Origin: Sphingomonas kaistensis
GTDB taxonomy: Bacteria; Pseudomonadota; Alphaproteobacteria; Sphingomonadales; Sphingomonadaceae
Direction of reading: 5' to 3'
Assembly (NCBI RefSeq): GCF_036884275.1
Contig: NZ_CP145607.1
Location: 1,909,001-1,973,000 of the forward strand
DNA length: 64,000 bases
Numbering within the stretch: the stretch's first letter is position 1; each line of letters begins with the position of its first letter. A model generated the notes under the pieces. It did not search any database. It was not told the origin of the DNA and worked only from the letters and a program-made list of their open reading frames with translations. The position numbers and the translations under genes were made by a program. Below, piece by piece: positions 31,036-34,638 of the stretch.

Positions 31036-32802
31036 ATGTCAATAAGAAGGCTGCCTTCCCACCTCGTTGATCGCATCGCCGCGGGCGAGGTGGTGGAGCG
31101 GCCGGCCAGCGCGCTGAAGGAACTGATCGAGAACAGTCTCGACGCCGGGGCGACGACGGTCAGCATCCGGTTGTCGGCCGGCGGGACGGCGCTGGTCGAA
31201 GTGACCGACGATGGGTCGGGAATGAGCGCGGCGGACATGGCGCTCGCGATCGAGCGGCATGCTACCTCCAAGCTCCCCGACGAGCGGATCGAGGCCGTCG
31301 ATAGCTTCGGCTTTCGCGGCGAAGCGCTGCCCTCCATCGCAAGTGTCGCGCATTTCACCCTGGAAAGCCGCGAGCGAGGCGGCGACGGGTGGCGGCTGGA
31401 AATCGATCACGGCGTGCGGGCGGGCGAGGCGCCTGCGGCGCTTCCGCCCGGGACCCGGGTGCGGGTCGATGGGCTGTTCGAGCGGGTACCGGCCCGTCGC
31501 AAGTTCCTGCGCTCGCCGCGGGCGGAGTATGCCGCCTGCCTCGATGTCGTGCGTCGGCTGGCGATGGCGCGACCGGATGTCGCCTTTACGCTCGAGCATG
31601 ACGGGCGGCGGGTGCTTTCGGTGCAGTCGGCGCCGCTGCCGACCCGCGTGGCCGGGCTACTCGATCCGGGGCTGGCGGATCATGGGCTGCCGATCGACCT
31701 GCGGCGAGGCGAGCTCAAACTGGGCGGCGTGGTGAGTCTGCCAACCTTCACCCGCGGTGCGGCCGACCAGCAATATCTCTTCGTCAACGGCCGCCCGGTG
31801 AAGGACCGGCTGCTGGTGGGAGCGCTGCGCGCGGCCTATCAGGATCTTATCGCCCGCGACCGCGCGCCAATCGTGGCGCTGTTCCTCGAGCTGCCGGGAA
31901 GCGAGGTCGATATCAACGTCCACCCGGCCAAGACCGAGGTCCGCTTCGCCGATCCGCAGGGGGTGCGCGGGTTGATCGTCGGCGGCCTGCGCTCGGCGCT
32001 CGACCAAGCCGGGCATCGCAGCGCGGCGCGAATTCAGGCCGCGGCACCGGTGCGGTGGACGAGCGAACTCGATACGCCGCCCTATGCCGCGCCCGCCGTC
32101 GGGGAAGCGGTCAGCCCGTATGCATCCACCATCCCGGCGCCCGCGAGCGTAGCCGAAGCCCACGCCTTGTTCGCGCCGGCGCCATCCGGGCGGGCCGAGC
32201 CGGCGGCGGCGCCGGTGTCGGATCACCCGCTTGGGGTCGCGCGCGGGCAGGTGGCGGGGACGTACATCGTCGCCGAAGCCGAGGACGGCCTAGTGCTGGT
32301 CGACCAGCATGCGGCGCACGAGCGGCTGGTGCTGGAGCGACTGAAGCGAGGTGCCGGCAACGGCGGGGTGGCAGTGCAGGCGTTGCTCCTGCCGCAAGTG
32401 GTCGAGCTCGACGAGCCCGAGGCCGATCGGATCGAGGAAGCAGCGGCGGAATTGCGCCATTACGGTCTCGAACTCGAACGTTTCGGCCCGGACGCGATCC
32501 TAGTGCGCGGCACGCCGGCCCCGCTCGGCCAACTCGATGCCGCCGGCCTCGTTCGCGACCTCGCCGCCGAAATCGCCGAATTAGGCGGTCCGCAAGCGCT
32601 GAAAAGCCGCCTCGATCTCCTCGCCGCGACCTTTGCCTGCCACCACAGTGTGCGCGCCGGGCGCGTGCTGTCGGTCGCCGAAATGAACGCCCTGCTGCGC
32701 GAAATGGAAGTCACCCCGCACAGCGGCCACTGCAATCACGGTCGCCCGACTTGGGTCAAGCTGGCCCACGGCGACATCGAACGGCTGTTCGGGAGGAAAT
32801 AA
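31036..32802 (+). CDS. mutL: DNA mismatch repair protein MutL
   Basis: A 588-residue GHKL ATPase coordinating mismatch repair. N-terminal motifs are complete: KELIENSLDAGAT, VTDDGSGM, FGFRGEALPSI. The C-terminal domain carries the endonuclease signature DQHAAHERLVLE, plus ACHHSVRAG and CNHGRPTWV, so this is the nicking type of MutL found in bacteria without MutH. The linker between them is Pro/Ala-rich (residues about 335-395). Followed two bases later by the GTG of a YdeI-like gene. Confidence 0.96.
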   Translation: MSIRRLPSHLVDRIAAGEVVERPASALKELIENSLDAGATTVSIRLSAGGTALVEVTDDGSGMSAADMALAIERHATSKLPDERIEAVDSFGFRGEALPSIASVAHFTLESRERGGDGWRLEIDHGVRAGEAPAALPPGTRVRVDGLFERVPARRKFLRSPRAEYAACLDVVRRLAMARPDVAFTLEHDGRRVLSVQSAPLPTRVAGLLDPGLADHGLPIDLRRGELKLGGVVSLPTFTRGAADQQYLFVNGRPVKDRLLVGALRAAYQDLIARDRAPIVALFLELPGSEVDINVHPAKTEVRFADPQGVRGLIVGGLRSALDQAGHRSAARIQAAAPVRWTSELDTPPYAAPAVGEAVSPYASTIPAPASVAEAHALFAPAPSGRAEPAAAPVSDHPLGVARGQVAGTYIVAEAEDGLVLVDQHAAHERLVLERLKRGAGNGGVAVQALLLPQVVELDEPEADRIEEAAAELRHYGLELERFGPDAILVRGTPAPLGQLDAAGLVRDLAAEIAELGGPQALKSRLDLLAATFACHHSVRAGRVLSVAEMNALLREMEVTPHSGHCNHGRPTWVKLAHGDIERLFGRK

Positions 32803-32804
32803 GG

Positions 32805-33077
32805 GTGGGTGGCGGTCTTCCGGGCGGCGTCGTTCACGACCTTCCAGGCGATCTCGAAGCGGCGCTGCTGAGTGACGACAAGGCGCGCGCGACGTGGCAC
32901 AACATCACCCCGCTCGCCCGCAACGAATGGATCTGCTGGGTCACCTCGCCGAAGACGCAGGAGACGCGCACCAAGCGGGTGCGCTTGGGAATCGAAAACC
33001 TTGCCGAGGGCAAGCGCCGGCCCTGCTGCTGCCCGGGCCTGCAAGCATCGCTGAGGGAAGTGCTGCTAAGCTCTTGA
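32805..33077 (+). CDS. YdeI/OmpD-associated-like small protein
   Basis: A 90-residue protein beginning at GTG 32805, two bases after the mutL stop, with GGGAGG in the mutL tail as ribosome site. The sequence DLPGDLEAALLSDDKARATW, then PLARNEWICWVTSPKTQETR and AEGKRRPCCCPG match the C-terminal helical domain typical of YdeI-type proteins. Some relatives affect stress or antimicrobial-peptide tolerance, but the biochemical role is unknown. The track-length frame that includes it runs back through mutL and is not the gene. Probably translated with mutL. Confidence 0.78.
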   Translation: MGGGLPGGVVHDLPGDLEAALLSDDKARATWHNITPLARNEWICWVTSPKTQETRTKRVRLGIENLAEGKRRPCCCPGLQASLREVLLSS

Positions 33078-33100
33078 AACAACAAGGCTCATGGCCATCT
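33073..33100 (+). promoter_or_regulatory. RpoH (sigma-32)-like promoter
   Basis: CTTGAA at 33073-33078, a 15-base spacer, and GCCATCT at 33094-33100 fit the heat-shock consensus CTTGAA-N13-15-CCCATNT with one mismatch. The -35 lies over the end of the YdeI-like gene. A start near 33107 would produce a transcript of about 150 bases ending at the terminator 33222-33261. Confidence 0.5.
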
Positions 33101-33137
33101 TCGCGCTATCGTCAACAGAGCGAAAGGAGGTGGTCAG

Positions 33138-33194
33138 ATGTCTCATTGTCCCAAGTCGGTGAGCCCTGCCTCCATGAACGAGGTAGTTGCCTGA
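33138..33194 (+). CDS. 18-codon micro-ORF with very strong ribosome site
   Basis: Encodes MSHCPKSVSPASMNEVVA. AAAGGAGGTGG lies seven bases before the ATG, nearly the full anti-16S complement and stronger than any other site noticed in the window. The peptide has one Cys and no hydrophobic segment. It may be a functional microprotein or serve only to load ribosomes on the small RNA. Confidence 0.45.
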   Translation: MSHCPKSVSPASMNEVVA

Positions 33195-33221
33195 AGGCTC
33201 GGTTCACCGAGCAAGACAATG

Positions 33222-33261
33222 GAAAGGCCGTCGGAGTTCAGGCTTCGGCGGCCTTTCTCTT
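33222..33261 (+). terminator. intrinsic terminator of the small RNA
   Basis: A 16-bp stem (33222-33237 with 33242-33257, three G-U pairs) closed by the loop TCAG, followed by TCTT; the 3' arm itself ends CCTTTC. The same DNA includes the 3' end of the minus-strand MFS gene and may also slow its transcription. Confidence 0.7.
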
Positions 33262-34638
33262 GGGCGCGGCGGCGCCATCGACCGTCAGCCAGGCCGCGGC
33301 GCCGGCGGCGATGCTGACGAACGCGCCGACTACCAAGGCGGTATGAAACGGCGCGATCAGCGCTTCGCCGTTCGATACCAGAACCGCGCCGAGCAGGGCG
33401 GTCGCGATCAGCCCGCCGGTGCGCGCCACCGCGCTGTTGAGGCCGCTCGCGGTGCCCGCATGGCGCTGATCGACCGAGGACAGAACCGTGCTGGTGAGCG
33501 GCGCCACCGCCAGCGCCATGCCCATTGCCAGGACGAGAACAGCGGGAAGCACGGTCGTCACATAGCTTGCCTCGGCGTCGATGCGAGTGGCGAGCAGCAT
33601 CCCTGCGGCCACCACCATCGGTCCGGCGGTCAGCGGTAGCCGTCCGCCGATCCGCGCCGCGATCTTGCCCATCAGCGGCGAGGCGAGGGCAATGACGATG
33701 GCTAGCGGGGTCAGCGCAAGACCAGCCTGCAAGGGCGAATAGCCGCCGGCTTCGATCAGCACGTAGGGCAGCAGCAGCATCACCACCCCGAAGGCGCCGT
33801 AGAGCAGAAAGGTCAGCAGGTTGGTCCCGACGAAGCAGCGATTGCCGAACATGCCGAGCGGCATCATCGCCTGATCGCCGCGATGCTTTTCGACCCATAG
33901 AAACAGGCCGAGCAACACGACGCCGCCGAGCCCAAGGGCGGCATTCAATGGCGCAATCCGCATCTCCACCGACCACAGGGTCAGGCCATAGGTGATGCCG
34001 AACAGGCCCAGCGTCGCCAGCAGCGCGCCGGGATAATCGGTGCGGGCGGCGTCCTCGTTGCGGCTTTCGGCGGCGAAGCGGGCGGCGATCAGGATCGCGC
34101 CCCCGGCCAGCGGCAGGTTGATATAGAAGATGGCAGGCCAGCCGACATTATCGACCAGCCAGCCGCCGATCAGCGGCGCAACCGCCGCGGCGGCCGCCCC
34201 CGCCGCCGCCCAGATGCCGATCGCGCGGCCGCGCTCTTCGCCTTCGAAGGTCGCGTTAAGCAGCGCCAGACTGTTGGGCAGCAGCAAAGCCGCGCCGATC
34301 CCCTGCAGCACCCGGCCGACCAGCAGCCAGGTGAGGTCTGGCGCCAGCGCGCACAGCAATGACGAGGCAGCAAACAGGCCGGTGCCGATGATCCGCAGGT
34401 GCTTGCGGCCATGCTGGTCGCCCAGTGCCCCGCCAAGGAGGAGCAGTGCCGACAGCGGGAGCAGATAGGCGTTCACCACCCACTGCACCTCGCTGGCGCC
34501 TGCGCCGAAGCTGGCGCGGATCGCCGGCAGGGCAACGTTCAGAACCGAGCCTTCGACGAAGCTCAGGCTGGAGGCGAGAATGCAGGCGACGAGCGTCCAG
34601 CGCGGATGCGCCGCGGCGCTCTTCGCCGCAGCGCTCAC
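33238..34638 (-). CDS. MFS multidrug efflux transporter (DHA2-like, 14 TM)
   Basis: A 466-residue proton-driven exporter. Helix-rich throughout, with the MFS motif region GGALGDQHGRKHLRIIG after helix 2 and LLVGRVLQGIGAALLLPNSL in helix 4, which fit the DHA2 group of 14-helix drug exporters. Substrate cannot be read from sequence. It overlaps the preceding small gene by four bases. The end of the gene lies inside the hairpin at 33222-33257. Confidence 0.9.
   Translation of the reverse strand: MSAAAKSAAAHPRWTLVACILASSLSFVEGSVLNVALPAIRASFGAGASEVQWVVNAYLLPLSALLLLGGALGDQHGRKHLRIIGTGLFAASSLLCALAPDLTWLLVGRVLQGIGAALLLPNSLALLNATFEGEERGRAIGIWAAAGAAAAAVAPLIGGWLVDNVGWPAIFYINLPLAGGAILIAARFAAESRNEDAARTDYPGALLATLGLFGITYGLTLWSVEMRIAPLNAALGLGGVVLLGLFLWVEKHRGDQAMMPLGMFGNRCFVGTNLLTFLLYGAFGVVMLLLPYVLIEAGGYSPLQAGLALTPLAIVIALASPLMGKIAARIGGRLPLTAGPMVVAAGMLLATRIDAEASYVTTVLPAVLVLAMGMALAVAPLTSTVLSSVDQRHAGTASGLNSAVARTGGLIATALLGAVLVSNGEALIAPFHTALVVGAFVSIAAGAAAWLTVDGAAAPKRKAAEA

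Follow-up and report, generated by a model that had tools for sequence, protein, structure and literature searches.

A divergent CC2171-type RNA element in Sphingomonas kaistensis with a conserved complement of the 16S rRNA tail and a short reading frame of constrained length

Next to an MFS transporter gene in Sphingomonas kaistensis lies a conserved element that is short, ends in a terminator and contains a small open reading frame (ORF) under constraint. Comparison with covariance models and with related genomes supports its identification as a divergent homologue of the Rfam family RF01867 (CC2171, a Caulobacter sRNA) that does not reach the formal cut-off. The most conserved feature of this family is a complement of the mRNA-binding tail of the ribosome, the 3′ end of 16S rRNA. 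Besides homology and conservation, the comparison of related copies reveals complementarity to 16S rRNA, a constraint on the length of the ORF, no detectable selection on the encoded peptide and covariation in a helix, P1, that closes around most of the ORF. The function of the RNA may therefore lie in the engagement of ribosomes and not in a peptide product.

The element, its family and its surroundings

Positions refer to the window, that is the whole stretch of 64,000 nucleotides (64 kb) that was analyzed. The parts of the element, all on the forward (+) strand, are:

33073-33100 (+): promoter-like element CTTGAA-N15-GCCATCT, with CTTGAA at 33073-33078 and GCCATCT at 33094-33100
33122-33135 (+): extended Shine-Dalgarno block GAAAGGAGGTGGTC, 14 nt complementary to the 16S 3′ tail (one G-U)
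33123-33133 (+): purine run AAAGGAGGTGG within the Shine-Dalgarno block
33138-33194 (+): 18-codon ORF MSHCPKSVSPASMNEVVA, stop codon TGA
33144-33150 (+): 5′ strand of helix P1, CATTGTC, at codons 3-5, covarying with 33215-33221
33166-33173 (+): anti-Shine-Dalgarno-like CTGCCTCC inside the ORF, with 33126-33133 or 33180-33186 as alternative partners
33180-33186 (+): GAGGTAG, partner of CTGCCTC in an internal hairpin of the predicted fold
33197-33212 (+): possible hairpin GCTCGG-TTCA-CCGAGC
33215-33221 (+): 3′ strand of helix P1, GACAATG, covarying, directly before the terminator
33222-33261 (+): terminator, a 16-pair stem with a 4-nt loop (33222-33257) followed by the short pyrimidine tail TCTT

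The promoter-like element, the 18-codon ORF and a 16-bp terminator stem, all within 190 bases, had been proposed in the initial annotation of this DNA and were recovered when the sequence was re-read and folded (span 33073-33261). The distance of seven bases between ribosome site and ATG that was given there holds if counted from the end of GGAGG (33130); counted from the end of the complete purine run it is four bases. Similarly, the proposed 6-bp hairpin GCTCGG-TTCA-CCGAGC could form, but the minimum-energy fold contains a different, longer pairing at this place. This fold, calculated for 33105-33262, has an energy of -70.9 kcal/mol, which none of 200 shuffled sequences equaled (z -4.93); in it P1 encloses most of the ORF and the terminator stem has its 16 pairs. 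The covarying helix P1, the complement of the 16S tail in its full 14 nt and a second copy in the genome are additions to what the initial annotation described. Upstream of the element are found mutL (31036-32802) and a 90-residue ORF of the YdeI/OmdA type (32805-33077), the stop codon of which is overlapped by CTTGAA, and downstream the MFS transporter gene on the opposite strand (33238-34638).

How is the element related to known RNAs? An Rfam scan of the 64-kb window at gathering thresholds returned tRNA only and no RF01867. At a threshold looser than gathering, the element aligns with the entire RF01867 model (positions 1-159); it scores 50 bits, where the gathering cut-off is 75, and has an E-value of 2.2e-9 in its own genome. 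Homology is supported despite the 50 bits because three copies from the same genus score 78, 76.6 and 75 bits, at or above the cut-off. The window copy shares with RF01867 the 5′ block CAACA..GAAAGGAGGTG.TC-N2-RTG-TCTCAT and the closing helix ending in GACAATG with the terminator stem behind it, but most pairs of the inner helices are deleted or non-standard, one five-pair inner hairpin being alignable. The initial annotation's statement that the element fits no family known to it thus has to be given up. The Rfam line consulted for this family reads "Gene; sRNA", with no ORF named in that line, and the literature found on RF01867, as far as its text was accessible, comprised an Rfam 15 table and a Mesorhizobium prediction; a search of the accessible literature for papers combining CC2171 with Caulobacter found none.

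The own genome contains two RF01867 matches, with E-values of 2.2e-9 and 3.2e-6; the copy outside the window is of the MSHGSA type and is found at a distance of 93 kb (G000:C1:1849025-1849191). At E ≤ 0.001 per genome and with strict filters, settings under which weak matches may be due to chance and others may have been missed, RF01867 matches were found in 42 of 80 relatives (the cut-off being passed in 3), in 268 of 298 sampled genomes and 89 of 96 genera of the host's family (5 above the cut-off), in 61 of 289 sampled genomes and 47 of 224 genera of the host's class (9 above the cut-off) and, among 14 control genomes, in Caulobacter vibrioides only. In addition, a pattern scan of named genomes yielded at least 120 stretches, with Sphingomonas, Bosea, Brevundimonas, Methylobacterium, Microvirga, Azospirillum and Roseomonas among the matches listed. 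One of the listed records with the motif is titled Candidatus Kuenenia and is probably a mis-binned alphaproteobacterial contig. Four genomes of the same genus (G012, G022, G032 and G062) carry two family copies 4-6 kb apart. A phage origin was considered and is rated low: phage records gave no match to a 37-nt core, and the two contigs of a viral collection that carry a family copy likely represent host flanks, because their peptides match those of a Methylobacterium locus (L164, one residue apart) and a Brevundimonas locus (L142, identical).

ORFs next to the copies were found mechanically, 93 upstream and 90 downstream; the neighbor scans covered 60 on either side, together with ten neighbors in the genus. 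Class-wide, no recurrent neighbor was found in these scans, a Pfam family being seen at most 4 times in 60 upstream and 2 times in 60 downstream. The nearest downstream ORF is on the RNA's own strand in 76 of 193 cases. A gene leader or attenuator was rejected or rated low, as no conserved downstream gene on the same strand was seen in these scans. For four MSHC-type copies of the genus (L007, L009, L012 and L043) the upstream gene encodes a PHB depolymerase, in place of which the window has mutL and ydeI; an MFS gene lies downstream of L012 as it does in the window. The gene for release factor RF3 was seen upstream in 4 of 60 scanned loci (among L120-L193), which from the ORF sizes are probably Microvirga loci.

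As to the promoter, the expression CTTGA-N16..19-C[CA]ATNT has one match on both strands of the 64 kb, the element itself, and in many copies CTTG precedes the block by 48-52 bases. The family copies fall into an ATG type (MSHC), a GTG type (VSHC) and the MSHGSA paralog type. In the ATG type the consensus is CTTGAA-N16-CCA, 64 of 69 copies being anchored on CTTG-like words and 52 on CTTG itself; the GTG type, with 77 of 112 copies anchored in this way on CTTG-like words, has a looser consensus. The expression for the -10 region was missed in 25 of the 64 and 65 of the 77 anchored copies, respectively. A strictly spaced CTTG/CATNT-like pair is present in 32 of 181 MSHC/VSHC copies (1.4 in shuffled sequences) and in 3 of 26 MSHGSA copies (0.25). 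With a CTTGAA plus C-rich CCCATNT promoter as the reference for RpoH (sigma-32) membership, the element resembles RpoH promoters, and control by RpoH is plausible from its sequence; sigma-70 may be an alternative reading. The own groES is preceded by CTTGAC-N16-CACATAT, and the pattern used for groES gave no match upstream of the own dnaK. In several MSHGSA copies (e.g. L019, L025 and L031) the -35 position of the promoter is occupied by a palindrome-like ACAAG[T/A]CTTG, perhaps a regulator site.

The 16S-tail complement and the short reading frame

Of 239 loci, 120 came from a pattern search in which TCTCATTG and an R as first base of the start codon were prescribed, and the core used to filter the loci to 207 sequences likewise prescribes TG, TC and the greater part of the block. 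Counts of start codon and block are therefore based on 88 model-derived copies, the best-scoring matches of the covariance model, which are not a neutral sample either, because both block and start region contribute to the model score by which they were chosen. In this sample GAAAGGAGGTG[A/G]TC is exact in 85 of 88 copies; in the three inexact blocks the second base is G instead of A, and in one of these the sixth base is in addition A instead of G. At base 12 of the block, 47 of the 88 have A and 41 have G, both of which pair (A-U or G-U). The block of one locus (L080) is degenerate, possibly marking a decaying copy.

The sequence of the 16S tail was taken from the records of named relatives and not from the own genome. 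A 34-nt query ending in CTGGATCACCTCCTTTCT matches to 100% in, for example, Azospirillum, Bosea, Methylobacterium and Sphingobium, and a single replicon of Azospirillum ramasamyi contains both the 16S tail and a family copy. E. coli, among the matches listed, matches in query bases 1-31 of 34 only, so that the first two bases of the block, GA, would remain unpaired there; the longer tail is shared by some other bacteria. The predicted duplex of the window block with the 16S tail has an energy of -25.5 kcal/mol as compared to -8.7 kcal/mol for GGAGG alone. In Caulobacter a Shine-Dalgarno site is present at the start of 24.6% of coding sequences (PMC4117421). A search of 21 related genomes for GAAAGGAGGTGNTC gave 19 matches, two of which are in the own genome; they are spread over 11 genomes and coincide without exception with family copies, the other 10 genomes having none.

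The start codon begins with A in 64 and with G in 24 of the 88 model-derived copies and never with C or T. Codon 2 begins with TC (serine) in 87 of the 88, a feature which in the larger set of 207 is nearly fixed by the selection of rows. This larger set consists of distinct sequences that remained after duplicates, loci with too little flank and loci with more than one mismatch to the core were dropped. In 205 of the 207 the first in-frame stop falls at codons 14-28, and in none before codon 14; the other two frames have a stop in this range in 45 and 46 sequences, and 200 shuffles in 54 ± 6 (maximum 69). Thinning by similarity to 89 representatives gave the same picture with 88 in range, against 16 and 17 in the other frames and 22.9 ± 4.1 (maximum 39) in 1000 shuffles. 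Moreover, the stop codon precedes the 3′ strand of P1 in 204 of 207. In one locus (L028) the usual stop is missing and the frame reads on to 66 codons, possibly a decaying copy.

Does the peptide matter? In 58 disjoint close pairs with ORFs of equal length and at most 30% difference, codons 1-5 excluded, no purifying selection on the peptide was seen, with a pN/pS of 0.96, a test that RNA structure within the ORF could blur; differences are distributed over codon positions 1, 2 and 3 as 138, 124 and 125. Thus length and frame of the ORF are preserved while the peptide appears free to change. Among the unusual starts in the family are MSNEII, MSSDSE and VKDCHQ.

Helix P1, the terminator and competing folds

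Conservation in relatives together with covariation, which the initial annotation had named as a check on its proposal, was found: the element is kept in genomes of the same genus, and P1 and the terminator covary. P1 was first named from the sequences and then counted; a script search, run without shuffle control, gave P1 as the best helix. In an alignment of 78 of the 88 copies, from which loci of unusual length, duplicates and L080 were left out, P1 is paired in 91.8% of cells, while controls with slid strands reach at most 53.4%, and five of its seven pairs show changes on both sides. The terminator stem covaries across the family, and for P1 and terminator together changes on both sides were found in 11 of 14 pairs as compared to a mean of 5.9 in shuffled alignments, none of 500 shuffles being as high. 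P1 is also replaced as a whole: the paralog has CATGGTT/GACCATG in its place, and distant taxa have ATGAGATT/AATCTCAT and GTGATT/AATCAC.

When applied to the alignment of 78 copies, RNAalifold returned five pairs near the start only, P1 and the terminator being absent, and on 17 sequences of the genus it chose a pairing of the Shine-Dalgarno sequence with CCTCC over P1. Folded singly, 12 of these 17 sequences form P1 and 5 do not, two of the latter (L004 and L005) being truncated at the 5′ end by the coordinates used; 4 of the 5 have a ribosome site that pairs either within the ORF or beyond the stop. In three same-genus loci (L033, L034 and L038) the predicted partner of the ribosome site begins right behind the stop codon, which would be a different means of hiding it. 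A fold with two states is possible from the predictions. Temperature-controlled exposure of the ribosome site, as suggested in the initial annotation, found no support in the predicted folds, since the predicted opening of GGAGGTG is gradual with no sharp step (0.36 at 20 °C, 0.41 at 37 °C, 0.45 at 42 °C and 0.56 at 50 °C) and the predicted family mean increases by 0.03-0.05 from 25 to 45 °C. An RNA thermometer is rated low on these predictions.

Ribosome engagement and its alternatives

What could such an RNA do? As its strictest features are the tail complement, the start codon and a frame of limited length, and the product is unconserved, we place its function in ribosome engagement, that is in occupying or holding ribosomes, and not in the peptide, and we consider this reading evenly poised between right and wrong. 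Transcription at this locus, control by RpoH, translation and a titration effect are parts of it that we infer. In the mechanism we favor, an RNA of about 150 nt, ended by the terminator, would be made from the stress-type (RpoH-like) promoter, and its 14-nt 16S-tail complement would capture a 30S subunit. Initiation at the adjacent ATG or GTG would then have to melt P1, beginning at codon 3, and the ribosome would read the length-limited ORF with its unconstrained peptide and halt before the 3′ strand of P1. In this way the RNA might occupy or hold ribosomes under stress, by 30S titration and as a sensor of the translation state. Against ribosome engagement it has to be said that codons 2-4 and, in two of the three types, CCTC are more conserved than a pure trap needs, that P1 right behind the start codon should slow initiation, that the Shine-Dalgarno core is predicted to be only partly free, and that P1 is absent from 5 of 17 single-sequence folds in the genus. 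A bolder version, in which an RNA trap found in much of the class and made under stress seizes 30S subunits by pairing with the full 16S tail and uses them up on an expendable ORF, with no protein needed, we regard as rather unlikely.

The main rival is a base-pairing sRNA gated by translation, which would regulate mRNAs via a conserved segment (e.g. CCTC, CAACA at the 5′ end or the strands of P1), translation of the ORF only opening or closing the fold; we hold it to be possible, if on the doubtful side. The initial annotation had pointed out that ribosome site and ORF can pair over eight positions, and this pairing is present in the sequence, between GGAGGTGG (33126-33133) and CTGCCTCC (33166-33173). 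CCTC is enriched over shuffles, being found in 51 of 69 ATG-type ORFs (17 in shuffles) and 60 of 112 GTG-type ORFs (36 in shuffles), in one frame in 85 of the 111, and in 83 sequences the distance from GCCTC to the stop (22.5 nt, sd 4.2) is tighter than that from the start to GCCTC (46 nt, sd 9.1). In 140 of 181 ATG/GTG-type copies and in 4 of 25 MSHGSA copies the ribosome site has its strongest partner upstream of the stop. Duplexes of the Shine-Dalgarno sequence with the rest of the RNA are somewhat stronger than shuffled on average, with p<0.05 in 38 of 181 ATG/GTG-type copies (40 single-base shuffles per copy), and the alternative folds in the genus would likewise suit a base-pairing sRNA. 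However, CCTC occurs in only 1 of 25 ORFs of the MSHGSA paralog, 4 of 25 of its duplexes are at p<0.05, and the bases flanking the pairing show no class-wide covariation (210 of 1000 shuffles were as good), covariation beside the pairing being suggestive in the genus. The comparison thus lends the ribosome-site/ORF pairing modest support across the family.

Of the three readings offered by the initial annotation (sRNA, microprotein mRNA or ribosome-site decoy), the decoy is retained among the best, while the microprotein loses ground for lack of purifying selection past codon 5. An mRNA with the M/VSHC peptide as its product would explain the strong ribosome site, the constraint on start and stop and the serine codon in 87 of 88 copies, but with the pN/pS of 0.96 in the 58 pairs, HC codons that fall on a strand of P1 and the occurrence of the MSNEII, MSSDSE and VKDCHQ starts it appears improbable. 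An ordinary sRNA whose ORF is translated only for protection of the RNA from decay would account for a sequence-neutral ORF of limited length and yet leave unexplained the full 14-nt 16S complement, which extends far beyond a normal ribosome site; we consider it similarly remote.

Among known systems, SgrS/SgrT is a dual-function sRNA with a small ORF and SgrT a functional peptide. The RNA proposed here resembles it as a short stress-type RNA with an ORF and differs in that no selection was detected on its peptide. Pos19 of Rhodobacter sphaeroides is likewise described as a short stress-type RNA with an ORF. GsrN, a stress sRNA of Caulobacter (PMC5869019), can be set beside the window RNA by description only, both being alphaproteobacterial stress sRNAs, the latter as proposed; CC2171 and rpoH do not appear in the GsrN text that was searched.

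RF01867 is filed as an sRNA, and its conserved tail complement together with an ORF that is limited in length and free in peptide sequence points to ribosome engagement. 6S RNA binds RNA polymerase and serves here as an analogy for the trap reading, since a central machinery of gene expression is occupied by an RNA, with no homology claimed. A ribosome trap, if true, would lower or sense free ribosome capacity as 6S RNA does for RNA polymerase, and an RNA that titrated or sensed ribosomes would be the counterpart in translation of what 6S RNA is for transcription.
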